A DNA stretch of 40,375 nt from Candidatus Uhrbacteria bacterium (GTDB lineage: Bacteria; Patescibacteriota; Patescibacteriia; UBA9934; GWF2-40-263): assembly GCA_016235605.1 (NCBI GenBank), contig JACRJW010000078.1, positions 1 to 40,375 on the forward strand. Reading direction: 5' to 3'. The position numbers and the translations under genes were made by a program. Of the stretch, positions 32,292-40,375 are shown piece by piece. Position 1 is the first letter of the stretch, and every line of letters begins with the position of its first letter. The notes under the pieces were generated by a model. That model saw only the letters and a program-made list of their open reading frames with translations, was not told the DNA's origin and ran no database searches.

Positions 32292-32350
32292 GGGGTCAGG
32301 TCGGGCTATGGGCTTTTTTCATAAAATAGCCCGTAGCCCGACCTGACCCC
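32292..32350. repeat. Long inverted repeat (22-bp arms), candidate bidirectional terminator / REP-like element
   Basis: GGGGTCAGGTCGGGCTATGGGC-15 nt-GCCCGTAGCCCGACCTGACCCC, 21/22 paired. Confidence 0.85.
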
Positions 32351-34436: not shown

Positions 34437-36287
34437 ATGAGCCTCGGTTATGGTAGGCTAGGGGACAGTATGGACCCCAAGGATGAGATTAAACAAAAAA
34501 TTGACATCGTCGAGCTTGTGGGTGAGTACGTCCAGCTCAAGGTGGCTGGGTCTTCGGGACTGAAAGGGCTGTGCCCGTTTCATGGCGAGAAGACGCCGAG
34601 CTTCCATGTCTCGCGCGATCGGCAGATTTGGCATTGCTTTGGATGCGGCGAGGGAGGCGACTGTTTTGCCTTCACGATGAAGATGGACGGGATGTCGTTT
34701 CCCGAGGCGCTTATGCATCTGGGAAAAAAGACCGGCGTGGAAGTCCGACGCCTTCCGACGGTGGAGACGAATGCAAAGTCAAGAATGTATCAGGTGAATG
34801 AACTGGCGCAAAAATTTTTTCGAAAAGTGCTTTTGGATTCTGGGAGCGCGGCATCGGCTCGAGCGTATGTGGAGTCACGGGCTATTCCTCTGGAACTCGC
34901 GGAGCTCTTTGGAATCGGTTTTGCGCCGGACGAATGGGACGCACTGTCTCAATTTCTCCGCAAGCGCGGATTCTCCGAGGTGGAGCTCATCGAGGCAGGA
35001 GTCTCCCTGAAGAAAAAAAGCGGTGTAGGCGTGATCGATCGATTTCGAAATCGGCTGATGATTCCACTGCGTGATCATCATGGGAATACGGTTGGGTTTA
35101 CAGGGCGCTCGCTTCCGACCTACAACCTACAACCTACAACCTTCGATTCGCCTAAATACATGAACTCACCCGAGACGCCGGTGTATCATAAAGGTTCGCT
35201 CGTTTTTGGTCTTGATTTGGCCAAACGCTGCATTCGAGAGAAAGGTTTTGTCGTGATCGTGGAAGGGAATCTCGACGTGGTTGCCTCGCACAAAGCTTAT
35301 GTGGAAAATATCATTGCGAGCTCCGGCACCGCTCTGACACAAGACCAACTGATTCTTCTCAAGCGCTACACCGAGACAGCCGTATTTGCATTTGATGCGG
35401 ACGCGGCGGGATTTGCCGCAGCAAAAAAGGGGATCAGTCTGGCCCGTGGGCTTGGGTTTGATGTGCGTGCGGCGATTCTTCCAGACGGTGTGAAGGATCC
35501 AGACGAGCTGGTGCAGAAAGATCCGACCGCATGGAAAAATCTTGTTGAGAAGTCTGTGCCGATCATGGAATTTTTGATCGCGCACGTCACCAAGGGAAAA
35601 GATTTGCGACAGGTTGATGACAAGCGTGTCGTGGCCAAGGAACTCTTGCCAGCCATTTCTGAAATGTCGTCCGTGGTTGAGCGTGAGCATTGGCTGCAGA
35701 TCGTTGCGGACCTTTTGAGTATCTCGTCTGATCAGTTGCGTTCTTCCTTGCAGCCCAAACCCTCGGAGCCCTTGAAGCCCTCGCAGCCTTCGACGCCCTT
35801 GAAGCCCCTCCCAAAAGACGAACAAGCCCGCCGGCTTCTTTTCGGCTACGCGATTCAGACTTCATCACAGTTTCAAACCATCCTTTCGCGTTTAGAACCT
35901 TTTCTAACTTCCTACAACCTACAACCTACGACCTACGACCTTTCCCTGTGGATAACCCTTTACAAGCTCTCCCGCAGCGCGTATGATCCAAGCAGTCAAG
36001 CAGCTAAAACATCGCATTTTTCAAGGATTCGTACTCTCACGTCCGGTCATCCCCACCAAGAAGCCCTCGAGGCACTTCTTGATACATCACTTTTGATGGC
36101 CGAAGAAACGTTTGGAGACATCCCTGAATCACAGATGCTGCAGCAAATTGAACATCTTTTCTCTCTCTTGAACACGCTGAGTACCAGTCGTGATCGTGAG
36201 GCGTTGGCGCGAGCGTTGCGTCAAGCGGAGCTTGCGGGAGATGAAGAAGAAGTCAAGCGTCTTTTAAGTACCATGCCTCGATTATGA
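34437..36287 (+). CDS. dnaG: DNA primase (alternative start 34470)
   Basis: CHC2 zinc finger [55 protein letters not shown]. Confidence 0.96.
35118..35141 (+). repeat. In-frame heptanucleotide repeat in dnaG
   Basis: ACCTACA x3 followed by ACC. Confidence 0.9.
35911..35940 (+). repeat. Second heptanucleotide repeat tract in dnaG
   Basis: cctaca-acctaca-acctacg-acctacg-acc. Confidence 0.9.
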
Positions 36288-37525
36288 AGAAGCCGCACAA
36301 GAAAAAAAATCGTTATCACTCGCAAAAAAAGAAAGTGGTAAAGCCACAGCAGAAGAAGAAAATGCAGGCGAAGAAATTTCCTGCGGTCAAAAAATATGTT
36401 CACGTTGCTGAGCCAAAGATCCGTTACAAGCGCGCGGAGCCGCCATCGGAGATCGTGCTTGAGAAACTCGTCGACAAGGGCATGCGCCGCGGGTACATCA
36501 CCGAGAACGAGATTCTTTTTACGTTTACGGATCTCGAGGACTATCTTGATGTCTTTGAGGATTTTTTGGATGAGCTCGAGCGCGTGGGTGTGCACTTTGT
36601 CGAAGTGAAGGAAGGCATCCTTGGTCGCGAGAAAGAACGAGGCGATGTGTACGACAAGATTCGCGTCAGTGAAGACGCACGTCGCACCGTGTTGCCAGAC
36701 ATCACGCAGGACTCCATCCAAATGTACTTGCGCGAGATCGGCAAGATCCCGTTGCTCACAGGAGAAATGGAAGTTGCGCTGGCCAAGCGTAAGGAACGCA
36801 ACGAAAAAGAAGCCGAGCGTCGGCTCATTGAGGCGAACTTGCGCCTCGTCGTTTCAATCGCGAAAAAATTCGTCGGCAAGTCCATGTCGCTCTTGGATTT
36901 GATTCAGGAAGGCAACATCGGTTTGTTCCGCGCCGTGAAAAAATTTGAATATCGTAAAGGCTACAAATTTTCTACCTATGCGACTTGGTGGATTCGCCAA
37001 GCGATCACACGCGCGCTTGCCGACCAGTCTCGCACGATCCGTATTCCAGTGCACATGGTGGAGACGATTAACAAGTTTCAACAAATTGAGCGTCAGCTCA
37101 TCCAAGACTTGGGACGCGAACCGCTCGCCGAGGAAATCGCCGCCGAAATGGGACAACCGATCGAGAAAGTTCGCCACATCCGAAAAATTTCACAAGAAAC
37201 GGTCTCGCTTGAAACGTCCGTGGGAGACGATGACGAAGATTCCAAGCTCGAAGACTTTATCGAGGACGTGAAAACAATCTCGCCAGACCGTACCGCCGCG
37301 CGTGAGCTTCTCAAAGACTACGTGAACAAAGCGATGGAAGGTCTCACTCCGCGTGAGCAGAAGATTCTTGAAATGCGCTTCGGCCTCACCGACGGCGTGA
37401 GTCACACCTTGGAAGAAGTCGGCCGCGAATTCGACGTCACCCGCGAACGTATCCGCCAAATCGAAGCCAAGGCGCTTGAAAAGATCCAAGCCAATCCTTT
37501 GATCGAGAAGTTGAGGGATTACTAA
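36284..37525 (+). CDS. rpoD: RNA polymerase primary sigma factor
   Basis: [61 protein letters not shown]; region 4 [25 protein letters not shown]. Confidence 0.97.
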
Positions 37526-37527
37526 AT

Positions 37528-37552
37528 GGGGTCAGGTCCGGAATCGGGAATT
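37528..37552 (+). repeat. Inverted repeat, left copy
   Basis: GGGGTCAGGTCCGGAATCGGGAATT; 24/25 complementary to 39067-39091. Confidence 0.9.
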
Positions 37553-37584
37553 CGTTGGACACAAAACATTACCCGGTAACGTCG

Positions 37585-37606
37585 TTTTGGCTGAGCTGAG
37601 CCAAAA
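37585..37606. terminator. Hairpin downstream of minus-strand cassette
   Basis: TTTTGGCT-gagctg-AGCCAAAA. Confidence 0.5.
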
Positions 37607-37626
37607 TAGAAAACCGCCTGTCGCTT

Positions 37627-38067
37627 TTACAGCTTCAGACGGTAGAGGTTGGTGTCGCGAACGGCGAATCCAAGAGAGCGGTAGAGACGGTTCGCAGCCT
37701 CGCGTTCTGGCTCACTGCACAAGTCGATGCGTTCGATGCCGATCTCGCGCGCGTGGGCGATGAGCTGGAGCGTCAACTCTCTGCCGATGCCGCGACCGCG
37801 ATACATCCTGTCAACGACGACGTCCTCGATGTGGCCGCTCACGTGGCTGATCGAGAACATCGCGACCAACAGAGCCGTGCCGACGATATCTCCCTCAAGC
37901 TCGTCATCGCGAGCGACGACGAGCTCGTGGGTCAGAGCCGTCGTGTGGAGATCAGTGAGCGTGAGTTCACGAGGAGCAGAAGAGAGCTGTCGGATCAGCC
38001 GCACGAGTTGCGCGTGATCCTTGATCGTCGGATTGATGAGACGCGAGTACGTGATCATTTGGCACAC
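37627..38067 (-). CDS. GNAT-family N-acetyltransferase
   Basis: HIEDVVVDRMYRGRGIGRELTLQLIAHAREIGIERIDLCSEPEREAANRLYRSLGF. Confidence 0.9.
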   Translation of the reverse strand: MCQMITYSRLINPTIKDHAQLVRLIRQLSSAPRELTLTDLHTTALTHELVVARDDELEGDIVGTALLVAMFSISHVSGHIEDVVVDRMYRGRGIGRELTLQLIAHAREIGIERIDLCSEPEREAANRLYRSLGFAVRDTNLYRLKL

Positions 38068-38702
38068 TTCTGGTTGATGGAGAGAATCACATCGAGGGCT
38101 TGTGGTAGATCGTTCACGACATGATGTGCGTCGTCAGATCGGCGGATGTCGTCGCTCCGGCGAATTTGGATACGATGGACGTCTGGCGCGATCGTGGCCA
38201 CTTGCTCATGCTCCCGCGCGCTGTCGTCCAAGAAGACCACATGTCCCGATACCGATGCACCACGGAGGATGACAGCCTTTTCGCCCGCCGTTGTGAAGTG
38301 CATCTCACGGAAGAATCCAGCAGGACGATCCAGGCCGTCGATCTTCAACTGCTGGTACGCACGATCGCCGAAGGTGAGGATCGATCGAGTGAGTCCGTGC
38401 TGTTTGAGAGCCTCCAAAAAGGCTGTTGTGTCGCTGTAGTTGATAGCACCCGAACGCACCCTTGCCTGGAAACGTGCACGTAGTTCCTTTGCCCACTTCA
38501 AGTCTGGATCGACGTCCATGGCACGCAGATGTCCCTCGAGCGTGTAGAGGTCACCGCGTTCCCAGATCATCACTCCTTGTGCGTACACGTGATCCGCTTT
38601 CAGATTCAGCCGCTCGGCGAGCTGGTTGATCCAGAGCGTCTGCCACAGTGGAAAGACGTTTACGAGCGTGAGGTCAAGGTCAAGGAAAAGATGGAGGTGC
38701 AT
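38055..38702 (-). CDS. HAD-family hydrolase
   Basis: LFLDLDLTLVNVFPLW, SILTFGD, GHVVFLDDSAREHEQV. Confidence 0.85.
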   Translation of the reverse strand: MHLHLFLDLDLTLVNVFPLWQTLWINQLAERLNLKADHVYAQGVMIWERGDLYTLEGHLRAMDVDPDLKWAKELRARFQARVRSGAINYSDTTAFLEALKQHGLTRSILTFGDRAYQQLKIDGLDRPAGFFREMHFTTAGEKAVILRGASVSGHVVFLDDSAREHEQVATIAPDVHRIQIRRSDDIRRSDDAHHVVNDLPQALDVILSINQKCAK

Positions 38703-39013
38703 CAGTTGATCCTGGTGGCGCGGAAGCGACCCTTGGCCAGTTCGCGGCCGTCGCGTTCGACCGTGAAGCCGCCTTGGATACCATCATCGCCCTGCTCGAT
38801 CACTCCGCGGACGCGGTGCTGTCTGGAACCGCTCGCGAATGGTGCGTCGGAGAATTGTCCATGTGCGTCGGCTTGAGCCTCTCCTTCGCCGTAGTCGCCG
38901 ATGCGGAAACGCGTGCGGCCGTTGCCGAGTTTTTCGATCTCGATGATCGCTTCTTGTTGTTGCCTCCCCGTTGGGGTGACACTGACATGACCACGATAAC
39001 GTTCAGAGGACAT
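38702..39013 (-). CDS. Hypothetical protein (start uncertain, ORF open to 39064)
   Basis: Overlapping start/stop with HAD gene; GC-rich codon usage matching neighbours. Confidence 0.6.
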   Translation of the reverse strand: MSSERYRGHVSVTPTGRQQQEAIIEIEKLGNGRTRFRIGDYGEGEAQADAHGQFSDAPFASGSRQHRVRGVIEQGDDGIQGGFTVERDGRELAKGRFRATRIN

Positions 39014-39066
39014 GGATGCTCCAGGACGAGGAGGGAGACTAGCATGAAGACAAATGGAGTTCAAGA

Positions 39067-39091
39067 AATTCCCGATTCCGGATCTGACCCC
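39067..39091 (-). repeat. Inverted repeat, right copy
   Basis: AATTCCCGATTCCGGATCTGACCCC. Confidence 0.9.
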
Positions 39092-39180
39092 GCATCAGCT
39101 GAAGTTGGCGCTTCCAAGCTCCTGCAACGATTTCAGGTGTGCTACGATATACCTGATGCAAGGTCGAACGATTAAAAATT

Positions 39181-39813
39181 ATGGAAAACGAAACGGAGGT
39201 GATAGCCCATGCACAACGTGATCCAGAGGCGTTCGGCCGGTTGTACGATACGTACTACCAGCCGACCTTTGGCTTTCTGTATAGTCGCACGGGCAACGCC
39301 GAGGTGGCGAAGGATTTGGTGAGTGAGACGTTTTTTCAAGCTCTGAAGAATCTGCATCGTTACAAACCGCGCAAGGGCGCCAGTTTCAAATCCTGGCTGT
39401 TCGCGATCGCGGTGGCGCAAATAGGCAACTACTATCGTAGCCGCTCTCGGTACCTCGAAGTCACCACAGACGAAGCGCCAGAGATCATCGGTCGCGAAGA
39501 CTTTCGGCCAGATGTTGCCTACCGCATGGGCGAAGACGCGACAGAGCTCGAGGGAAAGATCGAACTGCTCCGGCGCATGATGGCGAAGTTGAACCAACGA
39601 CAGCAGGATATTTTGACCTTACGATTTTTTTCACACATGAGCGTCCCCGACATTGCCGGTACGCTCTCCATGAAAGAAGGGACGATTAAATCACATATCC
39701 ATCGGGCACTGAAAAAATTACAGGTGCTTATGCTCTCTGAGAGAGAGGGAGCCATGCAGGAGGCGCAACCGCAATCAAAAAAAGAATATGAACCGAGAAC
39801 CGCTCAAAATTGA
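39181..39813 (+). CDS. ECF-family RNA polymerase sigma factor
   Basis: DPEAFGRLYDTYYQPTFGFLYSRTGNAEVAKDLVSETFFQALKNL; region 4 LNQRQQDILTLRFFSHMSVPDIAGTLSMKEGTIKSHIHRALKKLQ. Confidence 0.93.
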   Translation: MENETEVIAHAQRDPEAFGRLYDTYYQPTFGFLYSRTGNAEVAKDLVSETFFQALKNLHRYKPRKGASFKSWLFAIAVAQIGNYYRSRSRYLEVTTDEAPEIIGREDFRPDVAYRMGEDATELEGKIELLRRMMAKLNQRQQDILTLRFFSHMSVPDIAGTLSMKEGTIKSHIHRALKKLQVLMLSEREGAMQEAQPQSKKEYEPRTAQN

Positions 39814-40222: not shown

Positions 40223-40315
40223 ACTTGTCCTGTGATGTTACAATTGCAGCAATTAGGGTTACCGCATAGCCTCCGTCGAAGCGTACGCTAGTGAAAGGCA
40301 ATAAGCCTTTTATCT

Positions 40316-40375
40316 ATGCAAACACGTCGAGCGGACTCTGAGCTTGTGCGTCTTAAACAAACAGTCCTCGACGAA
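40316..40375 (+). CDS. Partial CDS running off the window
   Basis: ATG then open frame MQTRRADSELVRLKQTVLDE to the end. Confidence 0.4.
   Translation, partial: MQTRRADSELVRLKQTVLDE

Follow-up and report, generated by a model that had tools for sequence, protein, structure and literature searches.

Transposon-end repeats at the edges of an accessory three-gene operon between rpoD and an ECF sigma factor gene in Candidatus Uhrbacteria

The window analysed here, the whole of a 40,375-nucleotide contig from a 1.2-Mb Candidatus Uhrbacteria genome (G000), contains a minus-strand operon of three genes, lying between the gene for the primary sigma factor and a gene for an ECF sigma factor and edged by a nearly perfect pair of 25-bp inverted repeats. 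The two repeats are ordinary copies of a transposon end of a known kind (TIRYT) that is dispersed throughout the genome; repeats and accessory operon are both real, and the segment that they enclose appears to combine parts with different histories. The reading that joins these observations, and that we consider fairly probable, takes the repeats as transposon remnants at the edges of an accessory interval in which an operon was locally assembled by piecemeal turnover. The proposal that the segment is a mobile cassette is less likely than piecemeal turnover, and unproven.

The repeat-bounded segment

The features of the interval and its surroundings are the following.

32292..32350, no strand: 59-bp hairpin pair of the related type B repeat, GGGCTAT/GGGCTTT (repeat search and folding; an orthologous pair lies on contig C4 of the sister species G002)
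36284..37525, plus strand: rpoD, primary sigma factor, left core neighbour (Pfam Sigma70 r1.1, r1.2, r2, r3, r4)
37528..37552, plus strand: left TIRYT-type terminal repeat, constant core GGGGTCAGGTC plus two similar heptamers, CGGAATC/GGGAATT
37585..37606, no strand: inverted repeat TTTTGGCTgagctgAGCCAAAA, plausible bidirectional terminator for rpoD and the operon (read from the sequence)
37627..38067, minus strand: GNAT acetyltransferase, 146 aa, operon gene 3 (Pfam PF00583, E 1.9e-17)
38055..38702, minus strand: HAD phosphatase, 215 aa, operon gene 2 (alignments, AlphaFold, Foldseek)
38702..39013, minus strand: UNK, 103-aa all-beta protein, operon gene 1 (likely start ATG at 39013; the mechanical ORF extends to a TTG at 39064)
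39036..39064, minus strand: UNK promoter, TTGAAC-17 bp-TAGTCT (conserved in G002)
39067..39091, minus strand: right TIRYT-type terminal repeat, GGGGTCAGATCCGGAATCGGGAATT, 1 mismatch
39123..39152, plus strand: ECF promoter element, TGCAACG-N-CGATATAC (upstream regions aligned by eye)
39181..39813, plus strand: ECF sigma factor gene, right core neighbour (Pfam Sigma70_r2, r4_2)

A first, sequence-only reading had placed 25-bp inverted repeats with one mismatch exactly around a minus-strand three-gene operon, with the left repeat beginning 2 bp after the rpoD stop codon and with no transposase inside, and all of this stands. The left repeat, GGGGTCAGGTCCGGAATCGGGAATT, begins 2 bp beyond the TAA at 37523-37525; its inverted partner at 39067-39091 matches it at 24/25 positions; the pair ranks top among the inverted pairs of the whole window, can be extended from 25 bp with 1 mismatch to 33 bp at 88%, and is expected 0 times in shuffled sequence. 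The bracketed 1564 bp encode only GNAT, HAD and UNK, in neighbouring frames that overlap by 1-13 bp (13 bp for GNAT and HAD), and no transposase remnant was recognised there. The further statement that the right repeat abuts the first ORF is true of the longest UNK frame, which reaches the TTG at 39064, but not of the likely start, the ATG at 39013; with that start the right repeat really abuts the UNK promoter. Homology with G002 around UNK begins at this promoter, that is, at the inner edge of the right repeat. At the other end of the operon, TTTTGGCTgagctgAGCCAAAA is plausible as a candidate terminator serving both rpoD and the operon.

The three operon genes are indeed richer in GC (56-61%) than rpoD and the ECF gene (51-52%), as had been pointed out. 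As a sign of foreign origin this was considered and rejected: UNK, which is shared vertically with G002, has 61% GC in both species, so GC content is uninformative here.

The flanking genes are conserved. The rpoD protein is 90-96% identical in congeners, and orthologues of the ECF gene adjoin rpoD in relatives. An element resembling TGCAACG...CGATATAC also precedes the ECF gene in G001, G002, G006, G007 and G016; it is likely to be an autoregulatory promoter recognised by the ECF factor itself. The next conserved region after the ECF gene, by synteny, is mutY. The window ends (40223-40375) in the start of an apparent transposase gene, and another contig of the genome (C71) opens with a transposase 3' end followed by mutY; the two contigs probably lie on either side of an insertion sequence.

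A dispersed transposon end

The 11-bp outer core, GGGGTCAGGTC, occurs 26 times in the genome (0 times when reversed, as a control), and a census of the 25-mer with mismatches allowed lists 23 copies, among them two pairs, one opening contig C9 and one opening C44, that look like a single pair counted twice. Copies are found as hairpin pairs of 55-59 bp (a further one lies at C56:4666-4724), as solitary copies, some of them within genes, at the ends of transposase genes, and at contig ends where the assembly broke. Both 25-bp copies in the window carry GGGGTCAG at the outer end and with it the motif GGGGWSAS. Scanned with the type-A pattern, GTDB r220 gave matches nearly all in Candidatus Uhrbacteria; viral contigs do not contain the pattern, and the papers returned by a literature search with the core are all unrelated.

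What these ends belong to is clearest in G002, where an intact 298-aa Y1 transposase frame exactly fills the space between two 25-bp ends of this type (C1:20499-21402). Its product matches Pfam Y1_Tnp and falls just under the cut-off of NCBIfam REP_Tyr_transpos (77.5 vs 80); a C-terminal HTH is matched below threshold in 2/4 transposases. The Y1 transposase elements with repeat ends in G000 are a shortened one (C56:9857-10533), a decayed one (C111:17800-18547) and a remnant (C61); no intact type-A transposase was found in the assembly. The suggestion of REP-type boundary repeats was thus correct to the extent that the repeats are transposon-associated and bound Y1/HUH transposase genes, in the manner of TIRYTs.

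Positions of the repeat are vertically inherited at several loci, including one inside mutY in three species, where the copy in G000 is of type A and G001 and G002 carry a repeat at the same position. This single copy lies in frame within the gene (L133:701-1594 on C71 of G000; L112:5149-6039; L141:4848-5741). A hairpin pair likewise lies in frame, at the same position in two species, inside a glycosyltransferase-like gene (L122:4204-5298 on C56 of G000; L147:4035-5135 on C3 of G002). Elsewhere, on C34 of G000 (L131:5996-7098), a gene for a PP2C-type phosphatase has a type-B repeat on either side; the two repeats are in direct orientation, and CGTATATACGAACTTTCG follows each of them.

Two heptamers of similar sequence make up the inner 14 bp of the repeat, and from subtype to subtype they change in concert. 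Their summed identity is 3.99/7, vs 2.39 +/- 0.13 in shuffles, for 76 distinct 14-bp tails drawn from all copies fetched, a sample in which some tails match by chance or come from related copies. The subtypes of G000 and G002 are not the same at orthologous sites, and the change is often identical in the two heptamers.

The claim that the repeats bound a non-autonomous mobile cassette finds no support in this census: copies are common and dispersed, often stand alone and even lie inside genes. A common repeat unlinked to insertion boundaries had been named beforehand as the outcome that would tell against the cassette, and this is largely what was found.

The rpoD-ECF gap in relatives

Comparison of the junction across genomes, as had been proposed, bears out the accessory nature of the operon. 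The junction is empty in five genera (G004, G006, G007, G010, G016), with the ECF gene ~60-170 bp after rpoD. In G001, of the same genus, a Nudix gene and a small ORF lie between rpoD and the ECF gene, without repeats; other genes follow rpoD in G003, G013 and G017, the one directly after rpoD in G017 being the same dehydrogenase-like gene as in G002; and in G015 a TIRYT transposase element directly follows rpoD. Content differs even among congeners. Empty junctions in some genera and varied inserts in others mark the rpoD-ECF gap as an accessory site.

Separate histories of UNK and the HAD-GNAT pair

The sister species G002 has an UNK orthologue with 80% protein identity, on the same strand and upstream of the ECF gene; it is unaccompanied by HAD and GNAT, and no repeat stands at its promoter. 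The DNA identity of UNK between the two species is 77.7%, similar to that of rpoD (78%) and the ECF gene (80%), and UNK therefore looks vertically inherited. It appears to be older than the present repeat-bounded arrangement. A search of the class genomes matched only G002 and G047, and no UNK relative was confirmed in viral contigs.

The G002 locus is divided between two contigs. On C4, rpoD and a 312-aa ORF are followed by the last 21 codons of rpoD in a second copy; a type-A2 repeat and a 384-aa ORF come next, and the start of an IS30-like transposase gene lies at the contig end. C1, when turned, carries the 3' end of an IS30-like transposase gene, a PPS-like gene, UNK, a dihydroorotase-like gene, a dihydroorotate-dehydrogenase-like gene, a repeat, a transposase gene, a repeat, the ECF gene and the mutY region (the names of these G002 genes are our reading of the sequences). 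The simplest join, one of four possible among the IS30 partners, would place UNK within the rpoD-ECF interval on the same strand as in the window. This order, rpoD...UNK...ECF, is supported by the IS30 halves at both contig ends and by synteny with G001, in which rpoD, insert, ECF gene and mutY lie on a single contig. The stretch L111:2600-3610 of C4, with the 312-aa ORF between rpoD and the second copy of its last 21 codons, looks like DNA inserted at the rpoD 3' end along with a copy of that end. Departure of UNK from a shared dihydroorotase locus was also considered; G000, G001 and G003 all lack this gene, so the idea yielded no donor site.

At the thresholds used, G001-G003 have neither HAD nor GNAT. 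The pair recurs in the same order in two genera of another family, with a 20-bp overlap in G067 (compare 13 bp in G000) and abutting in G038; at these two loci there are no repeats and no UNK near the pair. HAD and GNAT thus behave as a separate coupled module, to judge by gene order. HAD has no relatives at E<=1e-15 in 381 genomes of the class and no close relatives in GTDB r220; since HAD and GNAT are without close relatives, the date of their arrival cannot be fixed. The idea that GNAT, HAD and the small protein form a self-contained module is supported for the recurring HAD-GNAT pair; UNK stands in G002 without both. With UNK shared with G002 and HAD-GNAT recurring elsewhere, the segment combines parts of different history.

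Predicted functions

HAD is predicted with confidence to fold as a capped phosphatase (AlphaFold pLDDT 94.6); its model matches HAD phosphatases and haloacid dehalogenases in Foldseek, and its catalytic residues (DxDxT, T110, K142, DD159-160) are intact in alignments. GNAT retains motif A, RGRGIG, the acetyl-CoA loop. HAD and GNAT are probably co-translated and probably act on one small metabolite. The best solved relatives of GNAT include several glucosamine-phosphate acetyltransferases and those of the HAD profile include N-acylneuraminate-9-phosphatase; from these remote matches, an amino-sugar phosphate would be our guess at the substrate. UNK is predicted to form a small barrel of 8 strands (pLDDT 93.3), for which a fold search gave barrel-like folds only and no solved fold at E<=0.001; the barrel may bind a ligand. 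PADLOC returned nothing for GNAT, HAD or UNK.

Origin of the arrangement

The favoured reading, local assembly by piecemeal turnover, would run as follows. The repeats are copies of the terminal inverted repeat of a TIRYT-type Y1/HUH transposon, which is scattered over Uhrbacterial genomes in the form of complete elements, paired hairpins and single copies. UNK and its promoter would already have lain between rpoD and the ECF gene before the split from G002, and the coupled HAD-GNAT pair would later have been added, or lost in G002. The repeats would most likely be remnants of transposon copies inserted in two gaps and not the working ends of a three-gene unit. Several things count against this reading: both repeats are of the same subtype, face inward and differ at a single base; the right repeat lies exactly at the boundary of the UNK promoter; the join of C4 and C1 in G002 is one of four; the arrival of HAD and GNAT is undatable; and with random placement of ~nine type-A loci an inward pair within 1.56 kb has a chance of ~2% (~4% over all types). 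The copies are not randomly placed, however: one lies nearby in mutY, and the repeat recurs at the interval in G002 and beside rpoD in G015.

A rival reading starts from an ancestral full TIRYT element between rpoD and the ECF gene; its transposase gene would have been deleted or replaced, and genes nearby would have come to lie between the two ends that survived. In G002, type-A2 repeats face inward from two places, one after the second rpoD 3' end and one ahead of the ECF gene, and a transposase lies on the ECF side; G015 has its transposase element directly after rpoD; and the homology of the UNK promoter stops at the inner edge of the repeat. The repeat-to-gene distances differ, however, between G000 and G002 (2 vs 6 bp at rpoD, 31 vs 7 bp before the ECF promoter), and the segment holds no recognised transposase remnant. 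The pair is suggestive of such a former full element at the site but falls short of demonstrating a moving cassette; we regard capture by an old element as possible, though unlikely.

More doubtful still is a passenger model, in which a TIRYT transposase, acting on the two ends, brought all 1564 bp as one non-autonomous element to their place between rpoD and the ECF gene. The nearly identical, inward, same-type ends at the segment edges, improbable by random placement (~2-4%), the empty sites in other genera and a compact layout resembling the 0.9-kb transposase elements would all fit. But neither the 381 class genomes nor a search of GTDB r220 with the HAD yielded a second copy; the flanks bear no clear target duplication; G000 offers no intact type-A transposase; and UNK appears to predate the arrangement. 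The proposed search for the same repeat around other cassettes went against the idea as well: among the other same-type inward pairs in the stretches examined none was seen with a non-transposase operon, the longer ones holding a transposase and the rest being short or hairpins (the short ones partly inspected). Neither the same unit elsewhere nor an exact empty/filled polymorphism was found; congeners differ piecemeal. The broader notion that TIRYT ends can carry passenger operons, with inward repeats around a multigene segment and a Y1/HUH transposase acting in trans, we hold to be similarly improbable.

A role for the repeats as insulating terminators or mRNA-stabilising hairpins of the operon, instead of transposon ends, would suit their placement after rpoD and between divergent promoters and the -31 to -32 kcal/mol hairpins formed by paired copies elsewhere, but deserves scarcely any credence, as single copies fold no better than shuffles (-2.2 kcal/mol), the two arms are 1.5 kb apart, and solitary copies sit inside coding genes.

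Comparison with known systems

TIRYTs, or TIRtrons (Di Nocera et al. 2013, PMC3733652; subclass 2.1 in PMC6006769), are described as a Y1/HUH transposase between long terminal inverted repeats that start GGGGWSAS; the repeats are dispersed as singles, dimers and clusters, single repeats are not hairpins, and some transposases have a weak C-terminal HTH (PMC3733652). To that extent the likeness is close: GGGGWSAS is present in both window repeats, the same repeat bounds Y1/HUH transposases in G000 and G002, window-type repeats occur as singles and pairs, and the singles are not hairpins. Of the four transposases, two have matches to an HTH, both below threshold. Unlike an autonomous TIRtron, the window segment holds an operon and no transposase between its repeats; and the two similar heptamers in the inner part of the Uhrbacterial repeat are without counterpart in the available part of the published TIRYT description.

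REPINs of the REP-RAYT system (PMC3116915) are inverted pairs of ~55-60 bp that form hairpins, and their solitary copies are seen as remnants. Paired hairpins, solitary copies and the transposase superfamily are common to both, but the window repeats lack the GTAG tag or foot and form no hairpin within a single repeat. MITEs, of 70-300 bp, are non-coding (PMC3733652). The window segment resembles them in having terminal repeats without an internal transposase, and differs in its 1.56 kb, its three genes and its unproven movement. Integron gene cassettes are likewise small accessory genes beside short repeats; unlike them, the window shows no integrase, attC structure or array, and its repeats are dispersed transposon ends. 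With the in-frame palindromic elements of Rickettsia the window-type repeats share their occurrence in frame inside coding genes.

Passenger mobilisation, if shown, would give the small-genomed Patescibacteria a new way of gaining genes, through a gene-cassette system that needs no integrase. On the favoured reading of remnants and piecemeal turnover, the locus is instructive in another way: a bracketing inverted repeat can mislead, and comparison with a sister species splits an apparent cassette into parts of separate history. In addition, Candidatus Uhrbacteria joins the groups with TIRYT repeats, and the gap between rpoD and the ECF gene stands out as a site of gene turnover.
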